Source: Lysobacter spongiicola DSM 21749
GTDB lineage: Bacteria > Pseudomonadota > Gammaproteobacteria > Xanthomonadales > Xanthomonadaceae
Assembly: GCF_900167055.1 (NCBI RefSeq)
Contig: NZ_FUXP01000017.1
Span: 1-41,752 of the forward strand
Reading direction: 5' to 3'
Length of the DNA: 41,752 nucleotides
Shown here: positions 22,858 through 34,861 of the stretch, piece after piece
How positions within the stretch are numbered: position 1 is the first letter of the stretch
Layout of the letters: every line of letters starts with the position of its first letter
The notes under the pieces: model-generated
Told to the model about the DNA's origin: nothing
What the model saw: the letters and a program-made list of their open reading frames with translations, nothing else
Database searches by the model: none
Made by a program: the position numbers and the translations under genes

Positions 22858-24978
22858 TTGAAGAAGACCCTGCTCTGCGTCGCGACCGCCGTCGCGCTTT
22901 CCGTGGCGGCCCCGCTGGCCGCCCGCGATATCGACCGCTGCCAGGATGGCGCCTGCGATCTCCAGCCCCTGTTCCAGGCCGACACCGACGCCGCGGGCGG
23001 CGGCGATGCCATTCCTGCCGCACGCATGGGCGAGTGGGGCATCGACACCGACGGCATGGACACCACCGTCGACCCCGGCGACGACTTCTTCGCCTACGTC
23101 AGCGGCAACTGGGCCGAGAACACCGAGATCCCCTCCGACCGCTCCATGTACGGCTCCTTCCTGGTCCTGCGGGACCTGTCCGAGGCGCGCCTGCGCCAGT
23201 TGGTCGAGAGCTACCCGGCAGGCGATCCCGCCACCGGCGGCGATGCCGCGAAGATCGGCTCGCTCTACCAGGCATTCATGGACGAGGCGACCATCGAATC
23301 GCTGGGCGCCAAGCCGCTGCAGCCGCACCTTGACGCCATTGCCGCAGCGGAAAGCAAGGAAGACATGGCCCGCCTGATGGGCGAGGCACATGGCGGCTTC
23401 GGTGCCAGCCTGTTCGGCGCCTACGTCTCAGACGACCAGCGCAACCCGGACAGCTACGCGCTGTACCTGAGCCAGTCCGGCATCGGCCTGGGTGACCGCG
23501 CCATGTACCTGGACGAGAAGTTCGAGCCGCAGCGCGAGCGCTATGTCGAGTACATCGCCCAGATGCTCGAGCTGGCCGGCTGGGAGGAGCCGCAGCAACG
23601 CGCGGAAGACGTGATGCGCATGGAGACCCGCATCGCCGAGGCGCACTGGACCCGCGCCGACAGCCGCGACCGTTCCAAGACCTACAATCCGGTCGCGCTG
23701 GAAGAATTCGATACCACCGCGCCGGGCTTCCCCTGGTCGACCTTCTTCAACGCCGCCGGCGTCGACTACGCCGAGCAGGCCGTGGTGCGGCAGGACAGCG
23801 CATTCCCGGAGATGGCGAAGGTCTTTGCCGACACCGATCTCGACACGCTCAAGGCCTGGCAGGCCTTCCACGTGGTGGATGAAGTCGCACCGCTCCTGTC
23901 GAAGGAGTTCGTCGACGCCGAGTACGAGTTCCGTGCCAAGTTCCTGTCCGGCCAGCCCGAGCAGCGCCCGCGCTGGAAGCGGGGCGTCGGCTTTGCCCAG
24001 GATGCGATGGGCGAGGCGATCGGCCGCGACTTCGTCGAGCTGTATTTCCCGCCCGACGCCAAGGCCAAGATGGACGAGCTTGTCGCGAACGTGAAGGCGG
24101 CCATGGGTGCGCGGCTCGACCAGCTCGACTGGATGGGGACGGAGACCAAGAAGGAGGCCCGCGCCAAGCTGGAGAACTTCGGCCTGAAGATCGGCCATCC
24201 CGACAAGTGGCGTGACTACGCCGACCTGCAGGTCGTGGCGGGAGACGTGGTCGGCAATGCCGAACGTTCGCGTGGATTCGAGTGGGATTACGACCGCGTG
24301 CGCATCGGCAAGCCGGTGGACAAGGACGAGTGGGGCATGACGCCGCAGACGGTCAACGCCTACTACTCCTCGGTCAAGAACGAGATCGTGTTCCCGGCCG
24401 CGATCCTGCAGCCGCCGTTCTTCGATCCCGATGCCGACCCGGCGGTGAACTATGGCGCTATCGGCGGCGTGATCGGCCACGAGATCATCCACGGCTTCGA
24501 CGACCAGGGCCGCAAGTCCGACGGCACCGGCCTGCTGCGTGACTGGTGGACCGCAGAGGACGCGGAGCAGTTCGAGGCTGAAGCTGCAAAGCTCGGTGCG
24601 CAGTACGAGAGCTATGAGTTCTCGCAGCTGCCGGACATGCACATCAACGGCGCCGTCGCGATGGGCGAGAACATCGGCGATCTCGGCGGCCTGACCATCG
24701 CGCTGGAGGCCTATCGCCGCTCTCTGGATGGCAAGCCGGCACCGGTGATCGACGGCTTCACCGGCGAGCAGCGCCTGTTCATGGGCTGGGCGCAGGTCTG
24801 GCGCACCCTGTGGCGCGACGACGCACTGCGCCAGCAACTGGTGAACGGCACCCACTCGCCGGGGCACATCCGCGCCTTCGCACCGCTGCGCAACATCGAT
24901 GCCTGGTACGACGCCTTCGAAGTGACCGAAGACGACAAGCTGTGGATCGCCCCGGAAGACCGCGTCCGCATCTGGTAA
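22858..24978 (+). CDS. M13-family metallopeptidase (PepO/neprilysin-like)
   Basis: A 706-residue secreted zinc peptidase, usual length for M13. A signal peptide (MKKTLLCVATAVALSVAAPLAA) exports it to the periplasm. The zinc site is His541-Glu542-x2-His545 (GHEIIHGFDDQGRKSDGTG), with the third ligand Glu604 in GENIGDLGG. NAYYSS and the C-terminal PLRNIDAWYDAF are family features. It cleaves peptides. The start is TTG 22858, with GGAGA about eight bases upstream; no ATG fits the signal peptide. It is followed by a strong terminator. Confidence 0.95.
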   Translation: MKKTLLCVATAVALSVAAPLAARDIDRCQDGACDLQPLFQADTDAAGGGDAIPAARMGEWGIDTDGMDTTVDPGDDFFAYVSGNWAENTEIPSDRSMYGSFLVLRDLSEARLRQLVESYPAGDPATGGDAAKIGSLYQAFMDEATIESLGAKPLQPHLDAIAAAESKEDMARLMGEAHGGFGASLFGAYVSDDQRNPDSYALYLSQSGIGLGDRAMYLDEKFEPQRERYVEYIAQMLELAGWEEPQQRAEDVMRMETRIAEAHWTRADSRDRSKTYNPVALEEFDTTAPGFPWSTFFNAAGVDYAEQAVVRQDSAFPEMAKVFADTDLDTLKAWQAFHVVDEVAPLLSKEFVDAEYEFRAKFLSGQPEQRPRWKRGVGFAQDAMGEAIGRDFVELYFPPDAKAKMDELVANVKAAMGARLDQLDWMGTETKKEARAKLENFGLKIGHPDKWRDYADLQVVAGDVVGNAERSRGFEWDYDRVRIGKPVDKDEWGMTPQTVNAYYSSVKNEIVFPAAILQPPFFDPDADPAVNYGAIGGVIGHEIIHGFDDQGRKSDGTGLLRDWWTAEDAEQFEAEAAKLGAQYESYEFSQLPDMHINGAVAMGENIGDLGGLTIALEAYRRSLDGKPAPVIDGFTGEQRLFMGWAQVWRTLWRDDALRQQLVNGTHSPGHIRAFAPLRNIDAWYDAFEVTEDDKLWIAPEDRVRIW

Positions 24979-25040: not shown

Positions 25041-25117
25041 TGTAGGAGCGGCTTCAGCCGCGACCAGAAACCGTCCTTCCGCGGCATTCCCCAATCGCGG
25101 CTGAAGCCGCTCCTACA
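25041..25117. repeat. REP/BIME-type inverted repeat (GTAGGAGCGGCTTC variant)
   Basis: Two 23-base arms (25041-25063 and 25095-25117) are exact inverse complements around a 31-base centre. Each starts TGTAGGAGCGGCTTC and holds the palindrome GCGGCTTCAGCCGC. It is the same element class as at 22155-22227 but with a compensated base pair change (GGC..GCC for GAC..GTC), as expected for RNA/DNA hairpins under selection. It lies just after the peptidase terminator. Confidence 0.92.
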
Positions 25118-25221: not shown

Positions 25222-25575
25222 CTATTCGAGGACCGCGACGGCCAATGCAATGACGAACACCGCCATGGCGGGTGATCCGACGGCGATCAATTCCAGTCGT
25301 CGCGGTAGCGGGCGCGGTGCCGTCAGCTGCAAGTAGCTCAGAATCCCTGTGATCCCTGCAAACAGTGACAACGCGAAGCAAACCGCGAAGCAGAGCATTA
25401 TCGCGCCGAGCAACGGCATCCCGCAGAACTCGGCGTCCCGGGACGGATTTGGATGCAGGAATTCGACGCGCATATAGGTGAAGAACGCGGCCGGAACGAG
25501 AACCGACATCGCGCCCAAGGTCAGCGAGGCCGTGCGCCATCCGCCGTGCGCTCTGGAGTCAATGGTCACAGGCAC
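25222..25575 (-). CDS. Three-helix membrane protein downstream of a PAAR fragment
   Basis: A 117-residue membrane protein that I do not recognise. Hydrophobic segments lie near residues 17-36, 52-80 and 95-116, with a loop containing FLHPNPSRDAEFCG. The GTG start (25575) lies six bases after the stop of the truncated PAAR gene on the same strand, so the two are probably co-transcribed. Genes right after PAAR genes are often immunity or accessory proteins; that role here is an inference with no family match. Confidence 0.68.
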   Translation of the reverse strand: MPVTIDSRAHGGWRTASLTLGAMSVLVPAAFFTYMRVEFLHPNPSRDAEFCGMPLLGAIMLCFAVCFALSLFAGITGILSYLQLTAPRPLPRRLELIAVGSPAMAVFVIALAVAVLE

Positions 25576-25581
25576 CAGGAA

Positions 25582-25761
25582 TCACTCGCCGCACGCGCGC
25601 GCTTCGGCGCCGCCTGTTGGTGAACCGGCACCAGCACCCGCACCGCCACCGGCATCCACGAGCGCGGCCGGCTGGCCATCAATGTCCGTAAAGGGTGATC
25701 CGCTGACCACCCGGCCGCCGCTCGAGGTGGCGTCTCCGAGTACAACCCACATCCTTGTCAT
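25582..25761 (-). pseudogene. PAAR-domain gene with internal deletion (59 codons left)
   Basis: The open frame starts MTRMWVVLGDATSSGGRVVSG and continues SPFTDIDGQP, aligning over about 31 residues with the intact PAAR protein at 30184-30879. At residue 31 it jumps to a Gly/Ala-rich tail (VDAGGGAGAGAG...ARACGE). The middle of the PAAR cone, including the metal-binding Cys/His segment (KATCPKHQG...ACGC) of the intact copy, is missing. The reading frame is kept and a GGAGAAAAC ribosome site remains. It cannot fold as a PAAR tip. It may be a deletion remnant that still drives the membrane protein gene behind it. Confidence 0.8.
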
Positions 25762-25909
25762 GTTTTCTCCGTGTCCTTCGACCTGTGAAGTCTAGCGGAG
25801 TCGCGGATCGGCGCTGTTGGTCCGGAGCTCCTTCTCGCATAACCTGCAGATTGCAGTACGCACTCCGGGGATGGAGCCTGCGTGTCATCGATGCCAAAGA
25901 GGTTGTCTG

Positions 25910-26356
25910 ATGCGAAATGCACGACTCGTTCTCGCCCTGGTTGTTGCAACGCTCGCCCCCATTGCCGCATGCACGCAACCGACCCCGGGTGAGGCGGACG
26001 TGTTGCTGCCCAAGCTGCCGCCGCTGCCGCCGGGAGCGGATGACGCGAGGTTTGCAGCCCTGCTTATCGGTCGCCCCGTGGTGCACGACGGGTGCGTGAA
26101 GGTCCGGGATTCGACTGGTGGACTGCGTACCGTCCTCTGGCATCCGGAAACCGAGCTGGAAGAACGGGAAGGGAAGTTCTTCCTCAGGAACACGCTTTCC
26201 GGGAAAGCCTACGCGTTCGGGGAGCAGTTGCGCGGCGGCGGTGGCGAAGTGCCTGCGGCCAACGTGGCGCAGCAGTACCCCGAGATTGCGGCCCGCTGCG
26301 GCCCGCCGTACTGGATTGGTTATCTTCCGTATCCAATCCAGACGCCGCCCAAGTAA
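25910..26356 (+). CDS. Small lipoprotein, paralogue 1 of the DGCV/GGGE family
   Basis: A 148-residue exported protein: signal peptide with lipobox IAAC, a Pro-rich linker (LPKLPPLPPGADD), then a compact domain. It shares with the proteins at 28204-28614 and 29548-29949 the pattern ALLxGxPVV-x-DGCV-K/R-V, RTVLWH, FLRNTLSGKAY-FG, GGGE, and a C-terminal YPEIAxRCGPPYW. The two conserved Cys (in DGCV and RCGPPY) probably form a disulfide. I know no named family. It lies close to the PAAR fragment, so a role in the same cargo is possible. Start ATG 25910 has AAGAGG upstream. Confidence 0.82.
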   Translation: MRNARLVLALVVATLAPIAACTQPTPGEADVLLPKLPPLPPGADDARFAALLIGRPVVHDGCVKVRDSTGGLRTVLWHPETELEEREGKFFLRNTLSGKAYAFGEQLRGGGGEVPAANVAQQYPEIAARCGPPYWIGYLPYPIQTPPK

Positions 26357-26387
26357 GCACGCACGCCGCGGATACCGTCGTGGCTGG

Positions 26388-26893
26388 TCAATCCGTCGCG
26401 GGCGGGGAGTGTTCTGCCCGGTGCGTACGGAGCCATGCCAACCCGGACCTTGGATCGCTGGCAGGGCCAGTCAGGCTGCACCGCCCGGCATGCAGTTCCC
26501 CTTGGTGCTCGGTCGCATACACCACGTACTGCTGGCCCCTTTTGAAACGATAGCCGCACGATGCCCCGTCGGCTGCGGAAACGACAACCACGGTGTCCGC
26601 GTGTGCACCCGTGAAGGGCTCCAGAACACGGAACGTGTAATCAATGGGACGGGCACTGCTCATGGTCGTGGGGTCAGGCCGACCCCCAAACGCCACAGAA
26701 GCCGGTTCCACCACGTATTGGGCGGCTGCGAATCCTCGACGCGGATGACTTCGCCCATGAACACATCCGATGCCCGCGCAGCCTCTTCCGCCGGACTACC
26801 AGGGGGCGCGCAGGAGCAGGCAGTCGCATGAAAGGGATGGAGCGCTGCGAGGACCAGCAGAGCGGCGATGCTGATTTTCATGAAGACCTTCAT
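26388..26893 (-). pseudogene. NTR/TIMP-like secreted protein gene broken by a frameshift
   Basis: The first frame (from 26893) encodes a signal peptide followed by ACSCAPPGSPAEEAARASDVFMGEV, the start of bacterial netrin/TIMP-like domains, then runs into a stop near 26660. The second frame continues with YTFRVLEPFTGAHADTVVVV and CGYRFKRGQQYVVYA, then CSLTG, the usual second half with its paired Cys. The two frames overlap around a run of five C (26683-26687 on the plus strand). One extra base there would join them into a protein of about 168 residues; one fewer would not. It is either a real frameshift or a sequencing indel. Confidence 0.8.
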
Positions 26894-27024
26894 TCGGGCA
26901 GTAGATCACGGCCTCCCGTCAACGCCCCGTATCGGACGGCTGCGCCAGTGTTCTTCCTCAAACCGGCGACCGGCTGACGTATCCTGCAGCCTGCATCACG
27001 CGCAGCAGGGCAGGGGGCTCAAAC

Positions 27025-28157
27025 GTGGCCGACGCAGACACCAAGTCCCTTCTTCCGTCTGGGGGAGAAGGTGCCCGAACGACGAATCAGGGCAGCCCGG
27101 GCGACACAGCCGAGGCCAACGCCGCTGCCGATGCCTTCATCGAAAAGTGGCGAGGCGTCAAAGCGTCGGAGCTCTCCACCTCCCAATCCTTCCTGATCGA
27201 CCTCTGCCACCTGCTGGGCGCCGAGACGCCGCATCCCACGGCCGATCAGGACTACATGTTCGAACGGCCGATCACCTTTGCCCACGGCGACGGCAGCAGC
27301 AGCGCCGGGCGCATCGACCTGTACCGCCGCGGCGCTTTCGTCCTCGAATCCAAGAAGCTCAAGCAGGCCGCTCACACCAAGGGCTTCGACGATGCCCTGC
27401 TGCGCGCCCGCAGCCAGGCCGAGAACTACGCCCGTGCGCTGCCCGCCGCCGAGGGCCGGCCGCCGTTTGTGGTGGTGGTCGATGTCGGCCACCGCAGACC
27501 CTGACCGGCATGTACAACGTGCTGGAGAAGCTGCGCAGCGGCGAACCTCTCACAGCCAAGGAGCGCACCGTCCACGAACAGGGCCTCGTCTCCGTCCTGC
27601 GCCAACTACACGACGAGCTCGACGAAGCCGTCCTCCACGCCTACGGCTGGGGCGACCTGCTGCCCGCGCTGCGCATCGCCCACGGCAATGACCAGCCAGC
27701 CGAAGGCCAGACCCGCGACGACGCCAAGCGCGCCTTCGACGAAGCCATCCTCGAACGCCTCGTCGCCCTCAACGCCGAGCGCGCCGCCGAAGAAGCCCGC
27801 GGCGAAATCCGCTGGCTGCGCCCCGAGTTCCAGAACCCCGACGCCGCCCGCGACCGCGCGCCCGAGCAGACCCGCCTCGCCACCGACACCGCCGGCGAGG
27901 AGCAAGCCGACCCCGACGCCACCCCCGTACCGCTGCCGCCCAATACCAAACCGCAACCCTGGCCGAAGGACACCGTTGACCAGGTCCGCGCCGTCGCCGA
28001 CCTCCTCGCCGCCAGCCCTGTTCCCCTGTCCATTGACGAGATTGGCGCTCGGTTTACCGCCCGCGGCCCATGGAAGAAGCGGTTGCCCAAGCTGGTGGAA
28101 ATGCTCGTTGCGTTGGGCAGGGCACAGGAGCAGGACGGGAAGATCGGATCGGCTTGA
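27025..28157 (+). pseudogene. Remnant of a type IIL (MmeI-like) restriction-modification gene
   Basis: The 5' part (27025-27504, 159 codons) is the N-terminal nuclease region of MmeI-like fused restriction-modification enzymes: FIEKWRGVKASELSTSQSFL, and the PD-(D/E)xK catalytic set as GRIDLYRRGAFVLESKK. It stops at FVVVVDVGH. From about 27495 a different frame (to 28157) encodes the enzyme's C-terminal end: LTGMYNVLEKLRSGEPLTAKE, DELDEAVLHAYGW, and ILERLVALNAERAAEEARGEIRWLRPEFQ. The SAM-binding methyltransferase and target-recognition domains between them, usually several hundred residues, are absent and the halves are out of frame. No functional enzyme is expected. Confidence 0.87.
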
Positions 28158-28203
28158 TGTGGTATTTCGTATTCCCGATCGGCAACAGGTGGAGCGGGTG
28201 TAG

Positions 28204-28614
28204 ATGAAGCTTTTCGGGAGCCTTGTTTTCATGTTGTTCGCCGCTGCCGGCTGTGCGACACCAGGCGGGTCGGGCGATCCTTTCCTGCCGCTTCTGGATC
28301 AGGTACCCGAGGGGCAAGACGAGGTTTTCCTGACGGCGGCGTTGGGCGGAGTCCCCGTCATCGAGCACGGCTGCGTCCGGATTGCCAGCATTGATGGCGA
28401 AACCCGGACTGTACTGTGGCATCGAGGCACAGAACTCGGCCGGGACGCCACCGGCTATTTCCTGCGCAACACCGTGACCGGCACGGCCTACCACTTTGGC
28501 CAGCAGATGGTTTTTGGCGGCGGAGAAATGCCCAAGAACTGGGCTGAGCGCGGCTATCCGGAAATAGCCAAGCGTTGCGGCCCGCCCTATGCCTCAGGCT
28601 GGCTGCCGCGGTGA
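28204..28614 (+). CDS. Small lipoprotein, paralogue 2 of the DGCV/GGGE family
   Basis: A 136-residue exported protein with lipobox AAGC. The mature part reads AALGGVPVIEHGCVRI, TRTVLWHRGTELG, FLRNTVTGTAYHFGQQ, FGGGEMP and GYPEIAKRCGPPY, closely matching the protein at 25910-26356. The Asp of DGCV is His here (HGCV). It begins 46 bases after the restriction gene remnant, and its stop overlaps the GTG of the next lipoprotein gene by four bases. Function unknown; the tandem suggests a small operon of surface or periplasmic proteins. Confidence 0.82.
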   Translation: MKLFGSLVFMLFAAAGCATPGGSGDPFLPLLDQVPEGQDEVFLTAALGGVPVIEHGCVRIASIDGETRTVLWHRGTELGRDATGYFLRNTVTGTAYHFGQQMVFGGGEMPKNWAERGYPEIAKRCGPPYASGWLPR

Positions 28615-29228
28615 CTCGGGTGGCGGGTGAGGCAGTCGAAAAGGCCACGAGGACGAGATCACGCGCATCTGCTTGCCGCAATTGGCGCCAAGCGCTTCTT
28701 GTGCTTGCAGTGTTGGGAAGCGCGGCCTGCAGCCAGTCCACGCGGCCGTCCCGGTCTTTTGATGGCGCCATCTCCGCGGAGGAAGTTGTTGCCAGCGCCC
28801 GGCCCGCTGACACTATCGCGACCGCGAGTCTGGAAGACGTGCGCTACGAGAAGTATGCAGACACGATGGACGGCACCATGGTGTGGAGGATTGCGCAGTG
28901 CCACGCCGGGGCATGCGTTGTGGGGGAACAGCTGAAGACACGTTTCAGTGCTCCGTTCTCAACGAGCGGAGAATTCTGCGCCGCGCGCGAGGGATGTCTG
29001 AAGCGCGATTCGCTGGCGAGCTACCGCGGTGAGATGTTCCTGACCACCTTCACGCGCGCGCCGTATCTGGGGCAGGTGGCAGCCAGACGGGGAGTTCCCC
29101 TGGAGGGGTATTCCAGCCTGAATCGTGGGTACTACCTCATATACCGAGGCACGCTCTTCCATAACGATAGACACAGGTTGGTTGATGCCGATTACGAGGA
29201 GGTAACGCGGCTGCTGAAGCAAGAGTAG
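28611..29228 (+). CDS. Exported lipoprotein, unknown family
   Basis: A 205-residue protein starting at GTG 28611 (GTGA overlap with the upstream stop). A long basic n-region precedes a hydrophobic stretch and lipobox SAAC. The mature part has four Cys in WRIAQCHAGACVVGEQ and FCAAREGCLKRD, suggesting two disulfides, then a Tyr-rich C-terminus (GYSSLNRGYYLIYRG). No relation to the DGCV/GGGE family is evident. Codon use includes ATA and other A/T-ending codons rare elsewhere in the window, in line with acquired DNA. I do not recognise it. Confidence 0.7.
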   Translation: MTRVAGEAVEKATRTRSRASACRNWRQALLVLAVLGSAACSQSTRPSRSFDGAISAEEVVASARPADTIATASLEDVRYEKYADTMDGTMVWRIAQCHAGACVVGEQLKTRFSAPFSTSGEFCAAREGCLKRDSLASYRGEMFLTTFTRAPYLGQVAARRGVPLEGYSSLNRGYYLIYRGTLFHNDRHRLVDADYEEVTRLLKQE

Positions 29229-29304
29229 GAGTGCGACTGGCCCCGTTGGATATCTTCCGCTCCTTTGACTCCGGTTTAATGCGGCGCCGTTCTATCACAC
29301 TGGC

Positions 29305-29763
29305 ATGGCGTTCGAAGGCTACGAGCCCGCCCTCAAGCTCGGAATCGATAGTTTTCTACAGCACGGAAAGCAAGAATCCCTCACCGATCTCGCACCGTAT
29401 CTTTGCGAGGGCTACGCGCGAACCCGCGAGGAGAGCCCCCTTGATTGGCCCGAGGCCAGCGATGTCGTGGCCGCCGCTTGTGGCGCCTTCACGATCGGAG
29501 CTGACCTGCGATTTCAGGATGGGCTCCTCATAGCGGCGCGTGCCCGGTTAGGGGGCAACAATCCAGTAGGGCCCTTCGCATCGCCCCATGTCGGTAACCT
29601 CGTTCACTGGAATTGCTTCGAGTTCCCCACCGCCGATATTTCGCGGCGATGTAGTGGCGCCCCAACGCCTCCCGCGGTCGTCAAGCACCACGAAGCCCTC
29701 GTCAGCCGCCTCAATGGCGAATCCATAGGGGAAAACGCCCAGATATCCGACTCTGGTCTCTGA
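29305..29763 (+). CDS. Doubtful open frame, probably a gene fragment at its 5' part
   Basis: The first 80 or so codons (MAFEGYEPALKLGIDSFLQHG to about residue 85) look protein-like: balanced acidic and hydrophobic residues and a helical pattern. The rest overlaps the lipoprotein gene on the other strand (29548-29949) and reads as antisense. I see no signal peptide and no family. It may be the start of a gene cut off when the neighbouring lipoprotein gene arrived, or a chance frame. Apart from this the 320 bases between 29228 and 29548 hold nothing clear. Confidence 0.3.
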   Translation: MAFEGYEPALKLGIDSFLQHGKQESLTDLAPYLCEGYARTREESPLDWPEASDVVAAACGAFTIGADLRFQDGLLIAARARLGGNNPVGPFASPHVGNLVHWNCFEFPTADISRRCSGAPTPPAVVKHHEALVSRLNGESIGENAQISDSGL

Positions 29764-29949
29764 ATCCGGAACCACGCGCACGCAGCCATCGATCACAGAC
29801 AGGCGGGCTTGGCTGAGGAGGGCGGTCATGTGCACGACTTCGCCTTCAGGCGGCCGCTTTATCGTCACCAGCAAAGGCTTGTCCTGTTGCCCACACGCGG
29901 CCAGCAGACAAGTTGCCGCCGCCAGAAGTCCGGCCTTGAAGCTGCCCAT
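29548..29949 (-). CDS. Small lipoprotein, divergent paralogue 3 of the DGCV/GGGE family
   Basis: A 133-residue exported protein with lipobox LAAC (Cys19). The domain keeps ALLSQARLSVIDGCVRVV, a Gly-rich centre, NIGGGELEAIP and the ending GRCEGPYW, so the two Cys and GGGE positions match the paralogues at 25910 and 28204. The TVLWH and FLRNT motifs are lost. It is oriented away from the PAAR gene, 234 bases upstream of it. No function is known. Start ATG 29949 begins the signal peptide; the open frame extends further but is unlikely to be coding. Confidence 0.78.
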   Translation of the reverse strand: MGSFKAGLLAAATCLLAACGQQDKPLLVTIKRPPEGEVVHMTALLSQARLSVIDGCVRVVPDSETRVGYLGVFPYGFAIEAADEGFVVLDDRGRRWGATTSPRNIGGGELEAIPVNEVTDMGRCEGPYWIVAP

Positions 29950-30183
29950 CGGGTTGCGCCATCCGTTCCAAAGTCCAAGCGAGCATAGCGACGCGACGTG
30001 GACAACATCTATCCGTGGGAACAGCCCGGTGGTCCGAAGCTTGCCCGCTGAGTCCGGAGAATGATGGGCGGTACCGTCTCCGGCTAGCCGCGATCGATCG
30101 GTAGCGGTCACGCCGGTTCCGCGTACCATCCTTAGCCGGCGCTGCGACAGGGACGTCGGCTGAACGTCACAAGGAGAACTGGC

Positions 30184-30879
30184 ATGACAAGGATGTGGGC
30201 GGTATTGGGAGACAGTACGTCGAGTGGCGGAAAGGTCGTCACTGGCAGCGCGTTTACAGACGTTGACGGTAAACCGGTGGCGCGGGTGACCGACAAAGCG
30301 ACCTGTCCGAAGCACCAGGGCACCTTCCCGATCGTGGACGGCGATCCGACCACGATCATCGACGGCCACCCGGTGGCCCTGCATGGGAGCAGGTTGGCGT
30401 GTGGGTGCGCGGTGCTGGCGGTGCAGCAAGTGCGCGTGGCGTTGCAGGCGGGTGTCGGCTCAGGCGCGCCGGCTGCCGCCGCCTCAGCCACCACCCCGAT
30501 GGCGTGGAATGGTGCCGGCAGCGTTGCCGAGAGTCGCGCCGACAATGGAAGCGACGCGGGTATCACCCATGTCCATTCCGATGATCCGTACCGCCGCCCG
30601 CCGGATCCCGAAAAGGCGCGTGAAGTGGTACGGGTGTCGGACGAGGCGCTGCTTCGTGCAGGTGCCTTTCGTCCCTACGGAACAGAGTTGGAGGCGGCGC
30701 AGGCATGGGCTGCCATCGTCGAACCGATTGCCAATTCGGTCGCGTTCGAAGTCGAGGTAGGTTCAAACATCAGCCGGGTCTGGCGCCGATACCTCGAACT
30801 TCAGCATGCCGCGGCGGGTGCGAGCTCCCTGGGTTCCGGCTCGGCCGTTGAACTCGGAGCAGCGGAGACACGGCATTGA
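30184..30879 (+). CDS. PAAR-domain protein with C-terminal extension
   Basis: A 231-residue protein. Residues 1 to about 86 form a PAAR domain (MTRMWAVLGDSTSSGG, ARVTDKATCPKHQGTFPI, DGHPVALHGSRLACGC), the cone that caps the VgrG spike of type VI secretion systems, with Cys/His residues for the metal site. A Gly/Ala/Ser linker leads to a C-terminal region (about 145-231) with RPYGTELEAAQAWAAIVEPIANS and EVEVGSNISRVWRRYLEL. This weakly resembles the start of DUF4329-type domains found after PAAR and may be truncated. No other T6SS gene lies in the window. AAGGAG precedes the start, and its stop overlaps the next gene. Confidence 0.87.
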   Translation: MTRMWAVLGDSTSSGGKVVTGSAFTDVDGKPVARVTDKATCPKHQGTFPIVDGDPTTIIDGHPVALHGSRLACGCAVLAVQQVRVALQAGVGSGAPAAAASATTPMAWNGAGSVAESRADNGSDAGITHVHSDDPYRRPPDPEKAREVVRVSDEALLRAGAFRPYGTELEAAQAWAAIVEPIANSVAFEVEVGSNISRVWRRYLELQHAAAGASSLGSGSAVELGAAETRH

Positions 30880-31754
30880 GGCGCTTGGCATTCATCGCAT
30901 TGATGGTGTGCGCGGGTTGCGTAAAGAACTCACCCGTCACCCCCGGATCAGCCGCCACGAGTCCGACCGACCCTTTGCCGTGCGCCGAGGAGGACCGTAG
31001 GAGAATCGACCCCTGCCGCGTTGGCATTGCGGATCTTCCGCGCGTGAGCGGCCACGACGAGCGCATCGTGCAGGTTACCGGCGGACTGCTGGTGCGGCGC
31101 GATGGCCTTCTGCTGGTGATGGCCGGTGACCAGCCCGAAGCGCCATTTGTCGTGCTCGATCCGACGCCGGCACTGGCGCAATGGCCGGGCATGGACGTGG
31201 ACGACTTTGTGGACTATCGGGTCCAGATCACTGGCCGTTACACCTCCGTCGATGTTCGGGCGCCTGCGGTGCAGGGGGCCGGTGGAACACTGTCAGCGGA
31301 GCGCATCGGGCGTCATGCGCTTCTGACGCCGTATGTCGGTAAGGACGATCCCCGTTATCCCAATGGGAAATCTCCCTACGAGAGGGCCTGTTTCCCTTGG
31401 GCCGGAGCGGCAGACGAGATCTGCCGATACGAGATCAGCGGGGTAGTTCAAATGGGCGATTACGCGCCGCGTAACGTCCAGACCATCGGGTTCGTGCGGC
31501 TGGTTGATGGTCGGCCGGTGATCTCCGAATGCGAAGGCTGGCCTGCCGCCGCCGCATGGATCGAGGGCGACCCGGCCGTCACCGCGGAACTGGCCACGAG
31601 GGCGGGGCAGTGGGTCGAGGTCACCGGCCGCTACGAGAGCAATCAGCGCGGCGATCGTGTCCCTCCCAACGTCATGGGATGGCTCGCAACGGAATCGGCT
31701 GATACCGCACAGAGGCCCGCGACTCTGTCCAGCTATTGCGCGGAGCTGGACTGA
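30876..31754 (+). CDS. Lipoprotein coupled to the PAAR gene
   Basis: A 292-residue exported protein starting at TTG 30876, which overlaps the PAAR stop (TTGA). The signal peptide has lipobox CAGC. Two similar beta-rich halves are suggested by VDYRVQITGRYTSVD and WVEVTGRYESNQ, each after a strand that begins VQVTG or YEISG, giving an OB-fold-like look. Two to four Cys could form disulfides. No known family. The coupling to a PAAR gene makes it a candidate immunity or adaptor protein; this is inference only. Confidence 0.75.
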   Translation: MRRLAFIALMVCAGCVKNSPVTPGSAATSPTDPLPCAEEDRRRIDPCRVGIADLPRVSGHDERIVQVTGGLLVRRDGLLLVMAGDQPEAPFVVLDPTPALAQWPGMDVDDFVDYRVQITGRYTSVDVRAPAVQGAGGTLSAERIGRHALLTPYVGKDDPRYPNGKSPYERACFPWAGAADEICRYEISGVVQMGDYAPRNVQTIGFVRLVDGRPVISECEGWPAAAAWIEGDPAVTAELATRAGQWVEVTGRYESNQRGDRVPPNVMGWLATESADTAQRPATLSSYCAELD

Positions 31755-31928: not shown

Positions 31929-32678
31929 ATGTCCCGTACGACCTCCGCTTGTCCCGTCACGCTTGATCCTGCTACTTCGGCCACCGCGCCGGGCGCCAAC
32001 AACGAGGCGCTGTCCGACTCGCTCGCAGAGCACATCAAGGCCGCCGAATTTCCGTGTGTAGGCGCCAAGGCCGCACTGTCCCAGGGCGGACTGCGCTGCG
32101 TGACCCTCGGCCGTCTCGGCGATCGCGCCAACGATGCATTGCTGCTGGATGCCTTGGAGGGCTTTGCGGCAGAGCTGGACCAGTTGGATGGGGAAGACCT
32201 GACCCTGCATTCGCTGGCCGCGGTATTCGACGGTCCCGGCGACACTGACGAGCAGCGTTTCGAAGCCCTTCTCTGGTCGCAACTGCAGCGCTTGCACGCG
32301 CTGGACGTGCGGCGAGGCCAGGGCTGGTCGCCGGACGTTGGCCGTGACCCGGACGCTCCCGATTTCAGCCTGAGCCTGGCCGGGCATCCGTTCTTCGTGA
32401 TCGGGCTGCACTCTGGCGCCTCGCGCATTGCACGGCGGCTGCCGAACCCTGCGATGGTGTTCAATTCGCATAGCCAGTTCGACCGGCTCCGCGCGGACGG
32501 TCGTTACGCACGGATGCAGAAGGCCATCCGCCAGCGAGACACCGAATTGCAGGGCTCGATCAACCCCAATCTCGCCGATTTCGGCACCGCGCCAGAGACG
32601 CGCCAGTACAGTGGCCGGGCCGTGGAGAAGGACTGGCGCTGCCCCTTCCACGCCATGCAACCGACGAGGAAGAAGTGA
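31929..32678 (+). CDS. YqcI/YcgG family haem protein, GntA-like
   Basis: A 249-residue protein with the full YqcI/YcgG pattern: FPCVGAKAALSQGGLRCV near the N-terminus, HPFFVIGLHSGASRIARRLPNPAMVFNSHSQFDRLR, and RRD-like IRQRDTELQGSINPNLADFG, ending RQYSGRAVEKDWRCPFH. GntA of this family is a haem-dependent N-hydroxylase acting on a guanidino precursor in guanitoxin synthesis. The substrate here is unknown. It is the first gene of a three-gene overlapping operon with a DUF1989 protein. No signal peptide, so cytosolic. Confidence 0.9.
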   Translation: MSRTTSACPVTLDPATSATAPGANNEALSDSLAEHIKAAEFPCVGAKAALSQGGLRCVTLGRLGDRANDALLLDALEGFAAELDQLDGEDLTLHSLAAVFDGPGDTDEQRFEALLWSQLQRLHALDVRRGQGWSPDVGRDPDAPDFSLSLAGHPFFVIGLHSGASRIARRLPNPAMVFNSHSQFDRLRADGRYARMQKAIRQRDTELQGSINPNLADFGTAPETRQYSGRAVEKDWRCPFHAMQPTRKK

Positions 32679-33304
32679 CCCGGATGACTACGAAAGACAC
32701 CGAGGCGACCCGCATCGATCCATGTTCGGCACGGTCGGTTGACCTGGAGGCCGGCGACGAGCTGGTCATCATCGACCCGGAAGGACAGCAGGTCAGCGAC
32801 CTGGTCGCCTTCGCGCGCGACGACACGCGGGAGTACCTCTCCTCCGGCCGCTCCATCGACTATGCCTCCAGACTGTGGCTCACCACCGGCGATCTGCTGT
32901 ACTCGAATCGCAGCCGGCCCATGTTCGAGATCATCGAAGACACTTGCGGCCGCCACGACTTCACCCTCACTCCCTGTTCGAAGGACACGTTCTCGATCAT
33001 CTATGGCGAGACGGAGGGAAGGCCCGGCTGCGAGGGCAACTTGGCGTCGGCACTGGCACCCTATGGCATCGGGGTGGACCAGGTGCCGATCGCTTTCAAC
33101 GTGTTCATGCACGTGGCCGTGGACGCCGGCACCGGCCGCATCACCGTGGAGCCGCCGTTGAGCAAGGCGGGCGACCACGTGCGCCTGCGTGCGTTGATGC
33201 CAATGGTCGCGGCGATGACGGCGTGTTCGGCGGGGCAGTCGAACAATTTCCGATACAAGCCCATCGACTTCCGCGTCGAACGGGCGGCAAGGGAGAACAA
33301 GTGA
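32675..33304 (+). CDS. DUF1989 / urea carboxylase-associated family protein
   Basis: A 209-residue cytosolic protein of the DUF1989 family: GDELVIIDPEGQQVSDLVAF, SRPMFEIIEDTCGRHDFTLTPCS with metal-ligand-like Cys and His, GCEGNLASALAPYGI, and QSNNFRYKPIDFRV. Two DUF1989 proteins form the carboxyguanidine deiminase of guanidine-degrading bacteria, so a hydrolytic role on a guanidino or ureido group is possible. GTG 32675 overlaps the upstream stop (GTGA) with GAGGA just before it; ATG 32684 is an alternative. Its stop overlaps the next gene's start (TGATG). Confidence 0.88.
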   Translation: MTRMTTKDTEATRIDPCSARSVDLEAGDELVIIDPEGQQVSDLVAFARDDTREYLSSGRSIDYASRLWLTTGDLLYSNRSRPMFEIIEDTCGRHDFTLTPCSKDTFSIIYGETEGRPGCEGNLASALAPYGIGVDQVPIAFNVFMHVAVDAGTGRITVEPPLSKAGDHVRLRALMPMVAAMTACSAGQSNNFRYKPIDFRVERAARENK

Positions 33305-34119
33305 TGACGCTGCGCAAGGAACTCGTAAGGGCATCGACCGTGCTGCTCGCTGCCGGAGTGCTGGGCGGCTGCGGTGGGCAGGAAGCACCGACCGCGTCGG
33401 CGGATCCCGTTGGCGCGCCCGCTCCGCAGGAGGCAATGCCTGGCGACAACGACCCCGGCGACATCAAGGGGCAGGTCCCGACGGACCTGATCGTCTCCAC
33501 CAACGAACCGTTCTGGCAGGCACGCGCCGAAGACGGCGTGGTCGTGCTGGAGGGGGCTGGCGTAGAAGGACGGCGCATGCCGATCCACGCCTCGGACATC
33601 GATACGTCGACCGACCCCCAGACACGGCTGATCCGTGCCGGCGACGACGCGGGCAAGGTCGAGTTGCGCATCACGGACGCTGCCTGCCAGGACGACATGT
33701 CCGGCGCGAGCTTCCCGATGACGGGGACCTTGTCCATCGATGGCGGCGAACCGATCCGGGGCTGCGCGCGCCCGGCATCGATGCCGCCCCCGCGCCCACC
33801 GGGTGAGGATGCAGTTGCCGAATCAATCCCCGCACGTTTCACCGGCTACTGGGCGCCCGAAGATGCCAACTGCGACCGCCAGAGCGTCGGTGGCCTGGAG
33901 ATCACCGAACGTGAGCTGCGTTTTCACGAAAGCGTCGCGGTTCCGCAGTACTTGGAACTGCTGGACGACGACACGCTAGTGGTCACCGCCAGTTACAGCG
34001 GGGAAGGTCAGCAGTGGACCGAAGAGCGCACGCTGACGTTGTCTGGCGACGGGCAGCTGACCATCGAGGGGCCGGAAGGGGACGCCTTCACCCGGGTCCG
34101 TTGCCCGGGCGGCGGCTGA
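33304..34119 (+). CDS. COG3650-like lipoprotein, third gene of the GntA/DUF1989 operon
   Basis: A 271-residue exported protein with lipobox LGGC. The first domain (residues about 58-160) reads TNEPFWQARAEDGVVVLEG and ITDAACQDDMSGASFPMTGTLSIDGGEPIRGCA, the signature of COG3650-type domains. A second domain follows a Pro-rich linker and begins FTGYWAPEDANCDRQSVGG. ATG 33304 overlaps the preceding stop by one base, so it is co-translated with two cytosolic metabolic proteins, an odd mixture. The family has no defined function. Confidence 0.82.
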   Translation: MTLRKELVRASTVLLAAGVLGGCGGQEAPTASADPVGAPAPQEAMPGDNDPGDIKGQVPTDLIVSTNEPFWQARAEDGVVVLEGAGVEGRRMPIHASDIDTSTDPQTRLIRAGDDAGKVELRITDAACQDDMSGASFPMTGTLSIDGGEPIRGCARPASMPPPRPPGEDAVAESIPARFTGYWAPEDANCDRQSVGGLEITERELRFHESVAVPQYLELLDDDTLVVTASYSGEGQQWTEERTLTLSGDGQLTIEGPEGDAFTRVRCPGGG

Positions 34120-34204: not shown

Positions 34205-34690
34205 TCAGCGCAGGTCGACCTCCCCGACCTTGTCCTGGTAGTCCTTCTTAGGGTCGACGCCCAGCAGCATCTTCACGCCCGCCAGCAGGCTGTGCTCGTT
34301 GAGCCAGACCTCGGCTTCGGTGGCGTCGAAGCGCAACAGCCTCAGCTTGGGGTCGTCCTTGCCACCTTCGAACCAGGCGGCGGTGAAGCGGTTCCACAAG
34401 CGGTCCACCACCGCGCGGTCGGTGTGGACCTGCAGGGTCCCGTGCATGGTGGCGAACAGTTCGTGGTCCTTGGAGGCGAAGGTGGCGAAGCCTTTGCGGG
34501 GGCTCGCCAGTTGCCGGGCCAGCTCGGTATCGCTGGAGGTGAAGAACCAGATCGGCGCGTGGTGGTCCTCCGACATGGCCGTCATCGGATGGATGTGGCC
34601 GCCGTCGTTGCCTTCGAGGCCCAGCATGACGGTGCGGTCGTCTTCGAGCGCATCCCAGAGCTTGGCTTCCAGTTCCTTCGGGCTGGTCAT
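34205..34690 (-). CDS. Pyridoxamine-5'-phosphate-oxidase-like FMN-binding stress protein
   Basis: A 161-residue protein of the general-stress-protein-26/PNPOx split-barrel family: RTVMLGLEGNDGGHIHPMTAM, IWFFTSSDTELARQL, GFATFASKDHELFATMHGTLQV, and DRLWNRFTAAWFEGGKDDPKLRLLRF. These small dimers bind FMN or a related flavin and are induced by stress; the true substrate is generally unknown. ATG 34690 has AGGAGA upstream. The longer open frame adds an unlikely leader. Confidence 0.92.
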   Translation of the reverse strand: MTSPKELEAKLWDALEDDRTVMLGLEGNDGGHIHPMTAMSEDHHAPIWFFTSSDTELARQLASPRKGFATFASKDHELFATMHGTLQVHTDRAVVDRLWNRFTAAWFEGGKDDPKLRLLRFDATEAEVWLNEHSLLAGVKMLLGVDPKKDYQDKVGEVDLR

Positions 34691-34861
34691 CGTTGTTTCT
34701 CCTGGTATGGGGGGAATGGCATGCCAAAGGCAGCGCCCCATTTACTAACCGAAGCCCCCTTAGAGGCGTGTGAGAGGTGCGTGCGGGTAATATCGGCGGG
34801 CGAGCCATGGGGCGTGGCCGGAATCCCGGATCCGCGGGCCGCTTTGTTCTGGGGGAAGGCA

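Follow-up and report, generated by a model that had tools for sequence, protein, structure and literature searches.

Orphan PAAR genes have been described in the bacterial family to which Lysobacter spongiicola belongs (PMC6653060), and orphan paar-tse operons are known from Stenotrophomonas rhizophila (PMC13340143). Orphaned immunity genes persist after pseudogenization of the toxin in Snodgrassella alvi (PMC5727410), and an islet of Salmonella Typhi has been proposed to be a cluster of orphan immunity genes of the type VI secretion system (T6SS) (PMC7400221). Here we analyzed a patch of genes at positions 25222-31754 of contig C22 (41,752 bases) of L. spongiicola DSM 21749 (genome G000, 3.1 Mb); this entire contig is called the window. 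The patch contains two PAAR genes, several lipoprotein genes and the remnant of a restriction enzyme, and in our comparisons it was bounded by an M13 peptidase gene and a PNPOx-like gene. In our view, the space between these two flanks is a turnover site, and the patch is likely to be what erosion has left there of effector-immunity and phage-defence genes; two of its lipoprotein families, LipA and LipB, are likely to be mobile cargo separate from the PAAR modules. Since orphan PAAR genes, PAAR-effector operons and orphaned immunity genes have already been described, the patch belongs to a known kind of gene-turnover site and represents no new system.

The S. rhizophila operons (PMC13340143) resemble the locus in that a PAAR-fused effector is paired with a downstream partner, away from the T6SS cluster and in the same family, whereas here both PAAR genes are without the toxin part and the site also holds the restriction enzyme remnant and unrelated lipoproteins. 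S. alvi (PMC5727410) shares with the window a retained immunity gene next to a broken toxin. However, its toxins are Rhs proteins that undergo C-terminal displacement, while the window has an internal loss in a PAAR-JAB protein, accompanied by a putative immunity gene. Unlike the Typhi islet (PMC7400221), the window has only one lipoprotein, LipC, and presumably a small membrane protein, MP, tied to an effector.

Genes in the window and in its relatives were called with a simple purpose-written codon-based caller, and relatives' genes for which no Pfam match is cited were named by eye. The genus comparison comprised ten genomes (G000 and G001-G009) and the family samples 340 or 345 genomes; C and L numbers denote contigs and loci. 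The patch genes are genuine. Rightward from the M13 gene, the order of the features was as follows:

22858..24978, plus strand: M13 peptidase, left flank (PF05649/PF01431; ortholog in 10/10 genus genomes)
25041..25117, no strand: REP-like inverted doublet, left border of the patch (23-nt perfect inverted repeat)
25222..25575, minus strand: small membrane protein MP (45% identical to L111 over 105 aa; in G009 it closes the effector module)
25582..25761, minus strand: PAAR stub, the first 36 residues and a short linker
25797..26961, no strand: stretch that G009 does not have, separating the PAAR-side half of the spacer from the MmeI-side half (matches flank both sides)
25910..26356, plus strand: lipoprotein LipA1
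26391..26893, minus strand: broken secreted-protein gene in two frames ("NTR-like" label unconfirmed)
27025..28157, plus strand: pseudogene of an MmeI-type restriction-modification enzyme (at 27496/27497 it lacks 2539 bp that the G009 gene has)
28204..28614, plus strand: lipoprotein LipA2 (46% to LipA1)
28632..29228, plus strand: lipoprotein LipB (70% over 187 aa to the C10 copy)
29548..29949, minus strand: lipoprotein LipA3 (58% to the C10 copy)
30184..30879, plus strand: PAAR2, a whole PAAR domain and a remnant tail without the JAB-type core
30876..31754, plus strand: lipoprotein LipC, probable JAB immunity protein (4-base overlap with PAAR2)
31929..33304, plus strand: YqcI/YcgG (GntA-like) and DUF1989 pair, accessory
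33301..34119, plus strand: LipD, a further lipoprotein-like gene
34205..34741, minus strand: PNPOx-like gene, right flank (PF16242; found in 9/10 genus genomes)

PAAR2 gave a complete PAAR match (PF05488, 85.5 bits with a cut-off of 27). When its tail was compared with the intact PAAR proteins of its own genome (on C16) and of G009 (on C12), the first part was found to be kept, as were the last residues by eye, and ~100 internal residues including the HTH motif were missing with the frame open to the stop; the automatic alignment set part of this tail differently from our reading by eye. Of the 176 positions of a JAB profile built from three intact tails, PAAR2 matched 3-49 only. Among 340 family genomes, 10 had matches to this profile: the window remnant, five genes that are intact and also encode a PAAR domain, and seven weak matches for which the fetched loci showed no PAAR domain. 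Two of these seven (L213 and L214) were inspected. The toxin domain Tox-JAB-2, which partly overlaps DUF4329, is defined by E, H[ST]H, S and D residues (PMC3482391). The intact PAAR2 relatives L018, L101 and L110 share the E, HTH and D residues with these toxins, but their Pfam DUF4329 scores were under the cut-off (16.4 bits versus 28.6 in L018) and L101 had no match; the window copy retains the E region only and is without HTH and the later part. As read from these alignments, PAAR2 has lost its predicted JAB-type toxin core in frame. An earlier note on this DNA had counted two PAAR genes, one of them gutted; both PAAR matches are real, and the second gene turned out to be gutted as well.

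LipC probably is the orphaned immunity protein of a JAB-type effector, since at four of the five other PAAR-JAB loci the gene that follows encodes a similar protein. Its N-terminal half was 33% identical to the protein encoded directly downstream of intact PAAR-JAB in L018 and 29% identical to the one in L101. When the 340 family genomes were searched with a profile of LipC and these two proteins, no N-terminal half besides those of the three seeds was matched, a count that is not independent because the profile contained the three proteins that it recovered. All its other matches fell in the C-terminal half and were spread over 45/340 genomes, seed genomes included. With a profile of the N-terminal half alone, run over 17,250 open frames of the fetched loci, the seed copies were followed by L212 (E 0.016) and L211 (E 0.082), both of them genes directly after PAAR-JAB, and the next match had an E of 1.6. 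A LipC-type gene was thereby placed after four of the five intact PAAR-JAB genes, two clearly (the seeds) and two by weak profile matches. At the weak Rhs-type JAB loci L213 and L214, a downstream secreted or anchored protein could be aligned by eye and the profile gave no match. These comparisons name a candidate immunity family for JAB-type effectors.

The C-terminal half of the L018 and L101 proteins resembles a lipoprotein domain found beside amidase effectors, which is not clearly so for LipC. This domain, next to PAAR-amidase genes (L018:8526-9386 and relatives), is widespread, the profile that includes it having matches in 45/340 family genomes, and two of the JAB partners combine it with an N-terminal half of the LipC type. 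We also observed that L110 (G009:C10:9000-23000) has two PAAR effectors close by, one JAB-type and one lysozyme-like by eye.

Selection might instead be keeping PAAR2 as a toxin-free spike tip and LipC as protection, in which case the right half of the patch would be a working rearrangement. The PAAR domain is complete, its frame is open to the stop and the overlap with LipC has been retained; only three PAAR matches above the cut-off serve three VgrG matches in the genome; and stand-alone PAAR genes do occur in relatives, such as one of 87 aa in L096. However, chance alone gives one in-frame event in three, the adjacent genes are plainly broken and codon usage is foreign, and we therefore regard this alternative as improbable. 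Doubtful, too, is the joint proposal that LipC founds an undescribed periplasmic lipoprotein immunity family for JAB-type T6SS toxins and that the PAAR effector became a harmless spike tip by in-frame deletion, kept with its immunity gene. None of our literature searches targeted LipC or LipA by name, so neither family is claimed to be unpublished.

Erosion was visible by comparison in the left module, which is whole in G009. With the same order and orientation as in the window, the G009 site carries an MmeI-type enzyme diverging from a PAAR gene, then an Amidase_2 protein, a small immunity-like gene (lipobox by eye) and the MP homolog. The G009 enzyme is intact, with 1207 aa and MmeI N-terminal, spacer, methylase and target-recognition (TRD) domains. 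In the window, the PAAR gene is reduced to a PF05488 fragment at 25657-25740 in which only positions 1-28 of 70 were matched, the stub being 83% identical to the G009 PAAR protein over 36 residues, and the amidase and its neighbor gene are absent. Positions 27119-27496 aligned to the G009 MmeI gene at 88% and positions 27497-28138 at 90%, with 2539 G009 bases missing between them. This loss is not a multiple of three, and the frame stops shortly past the junction. The remnant retained an MmeI_N match of 63.4 bits, and its end pieces matched positions 3-147 and 958-1132 of the 1136 positions of a type IIG profile. As compared to an MmeI-type (type IIL/IIG) enzyme, the window shares the N- and C-terminal parts but is without the spacer, the methylase and most of the target-recognition part; only both ends are present, the frame is broken, and the nuclease-spacer-methylase-target-recognition set does not lie in one open frame. 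In addition, the spacer between the PAAR and MmeI genes is split by ~1.17 kb with LipA1 and the broken gene. G009 and the window form a before-and-after pair for the decay of effector, immunity and restriction genes at one site.

Several gene assignments of the earlier note can be judged from this module. Its restriction-modification remnant was confirmed by the MmeI_N match and the two type IIG end pieces, and its membrane protein corresponds to the small membrane-protein-like open reading frame (ORF) MP. The gene that it had described as a frameshifted NTR-like gene is indeed divided between two frames (26391-26893), but the NTR label had nothing above noise in Pfam, in NCBIfam (C-terminal piece only) or among PDB sequences (TIMP-2, E 0.62).

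We propose the following mechanism. Intact PAAR-JAB proteins would ride the VgrG tip of the T6SS and, once delivered, would act in the periplasm of rival bacteria, and LipC-type lipoproteins would neutralize JAB proteins in the periplasm. Loss of the toxin may be tolerated as long as the immunity gene still protects against kin that keep it. At this site, the left module lacks its effector, the effector's partner and the core of the MmeI enzyme, and the second cassette has kept its PAAR domain and lacks the JAB-type core, in frame, with LipC remaining as an open gene. The T6SS itself lies outside the window: the genome has a single TssC match (PF05943) on C24, whose neighbors resemble, by eye, TssB, Hcp, TssF, TssG, TssJ, TssK and TssL, and three VgrG-type matches (PF05954) on C14, C17 and C20. 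Among the window gene calls no T6SS gene was seen, which agrees with the earlier note that no T6SS structural gene or VgrG is present there. In G004 and G005 we found no TssC match though PAAR and VgrG-type matches were present, which may reflect orphan T6SS parts or a phage-like system.

An M13 ortholog at ~75-80% identity was found in all ten genus genomes and the PNPOx-like gene in nine, with no match in G007. M13 is followed by PNPOx in five of the ten. The spacing between the two matches was 127 bases in G004 and 126 bases in G003, where the interval is empty, and reached 9.2 kb in the window genome, 9.4 kb in G005 and 19 kb in G009, with contents that differ among the last three. The PNPOx-like gene was 27-34 kb off on the opposite side of M13 in G001, G002 and G006, and on a separate contig in G008; with other arrangements in these five genomes, conservation of the flanks is partial. 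PNPOx and HDOD remain together in G000, G005 and G009, and in the fetched G005 and G009 sites the window query genes from outside the patch were not found beyond M13, PNPOx and HDOD, with the exception of a weak EAL match in G005. A PAAR gene is present at the G009 site and none was found at the G005 site. The window has no tRNA gene, and no integrase was noticed beside the patch among the gene calls, no profile search for integrases having been made.

It is also rather unlikely that the locus is a general insertion site for any mobile cargo, unconnected with interbacterial conflict and with PAAR genes only incidental to it. Such a site would explain the mixed content (YqcI-DUF1989, LipA, LipB and the split gene) and the arsenic-type genes seen by eye at the site in G005 and G009. 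However, two different PAAR cassettes share this site, one belonging to a module that G009 also has, and in eight of the ten genus genomes the M13 ortholog has a PAAR match no more than ~14 kb away, on either side, though several of the eight are closely related, carry an identical gene arrangement in this respect and share one event.

Codon usage of most patch genes is foreign. In codon adaptation, 11 of the 13 patch stretches (z -3.2 to -4.7) ranked under each of the 69 comparison genes; one of these 11, a 152-aa ORF at 29305, is probably no gene. The two MmeI pieces, at ranks 23 and 13 of 69, look native. Beyond the patch, DUF1989 ranked 12 and YqcI 2 of 69. The turnover hotspot that the earlier note had put forward, for which it suggested comparing flank synteny and codon bias, was thus supported on both counts, by the variable content between M13 and PNPOx, flanks conserved in 5/10 genomes, and by the foreign codon usage. 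Its description of ordinary chromosome on both flanks held for M13 but not for the GntA-like right flank. That gene, YqcI/YcgG, had matches in 3/9 same-genus relatives, at other chromosomal places, and being patchy and located elsewhere in relatives it is accessory too.

Some observations weigh against an eroded effector-immunity and defence patch at a turnover site. The 69 comparison genes were chosen with the codon-based caller, which biased the codon test toward a foreign result. The other five genus genomes are without the M13-PNPOx arrangement. With two genomes to compare, the ~1.17 kb difference fits a gain in the window or a loss in G009 alike. Of the LipC-type matches, the three strong ones are the profile's own seeds, whose loci had been fetched for their PAAR genes, and the two others are weak; moreover, the gene after PAAR-JAB in L110 encodes an anchored protein unrelated to LipC. 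With these points considered, we still hold the eroded-remnant reading to be likely.

The remaining lipoproteins appear to have a different history. LipA1 and LipA2 are 46% identical and LipA3 is a distant third, the three forming one paralogous family (starts at 25910, 28204 and 29548). A fourth copy lies on contig C10, and C28 has a weak fifth match with internal stops. The family was found in 16/345 sampled family genomes, in 5/54 genera. Among 15 LipA loci outside this genome, three have attC sites beside the LipA relative: G006 (L161, G006:C1:2805000-2817000) and G343 (L165) on both sides, and G335 (L168) on one. G343 has ~26 attC sites in 12.5 kb, and the G006 array adjoins a phage-integrase-family gene that we took as the integron integrase. 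No attC site was found in the other 12 LipA loci, a Luteimonas locus, the C10 locus or the window with a pattern derived from the G006 sites, which other attC types could escape. Judged by these sites, the LipA relatives in G006, G343 and G335 are cassettes of predicted chromosomal integron arrays, and the family looks mobile. In Xanthomonas integrons, cassettes are mostly of unassigned function and 11.6% have signal peptides (PMC12444791). Our observations highlight lipoproteins moving in integrons of the Lysobacter family. A second LipA-LipB pair (L020, G000:C10:84000-98000) adjoins a MobA/MobL relaxase gene and its codon usage is even more foreign. For LipB no T6SS link was found, its sole relative in the fetched loci being the one in this pair.

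That the whole set of five lipoproteins, with LipA and LipB among them, is a stockpile of immunity proteins against incoming effectors is very unlikely, for although they adjoin PAAR genes and immunity arrays and islets are known (PMC7400221), a PAAR gene was present, ~3.4 kb off, in only one of the 15 LipA loci (fetched stretch only, two loci ending at or near a contig end, and effector types besides PAAR not searched), attC sites occur in three, and the LipB relative adjoins LipA and the relaxase gene. The earlier note had listed five orphan small secreted lipoproteins; five ORFs do have a signal peptide and, by eye, a lipobox-like cysteine, but three belong to one family and LipC is tied to PAAR-JAB. 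Its suggestion of a decaying island for spike-delivered effectors and their immunity proteins fits the PAAR stub with MP and PAAR2 with LipC but found no support for the LipA family or LipB.

For LipD, no relative was found among the fetched loci. DUF1989 adjoins YqcI in 7/8 relative loci (L010-L016 among the loci), and the pair sits at varied chromosomal places in the genus. The REP-like doublet (25041-25117) contains a 22-mer with 269 copies in the genome (133 forward and 136 reverse), and most of the listed copies are paired ~53 bases apart.

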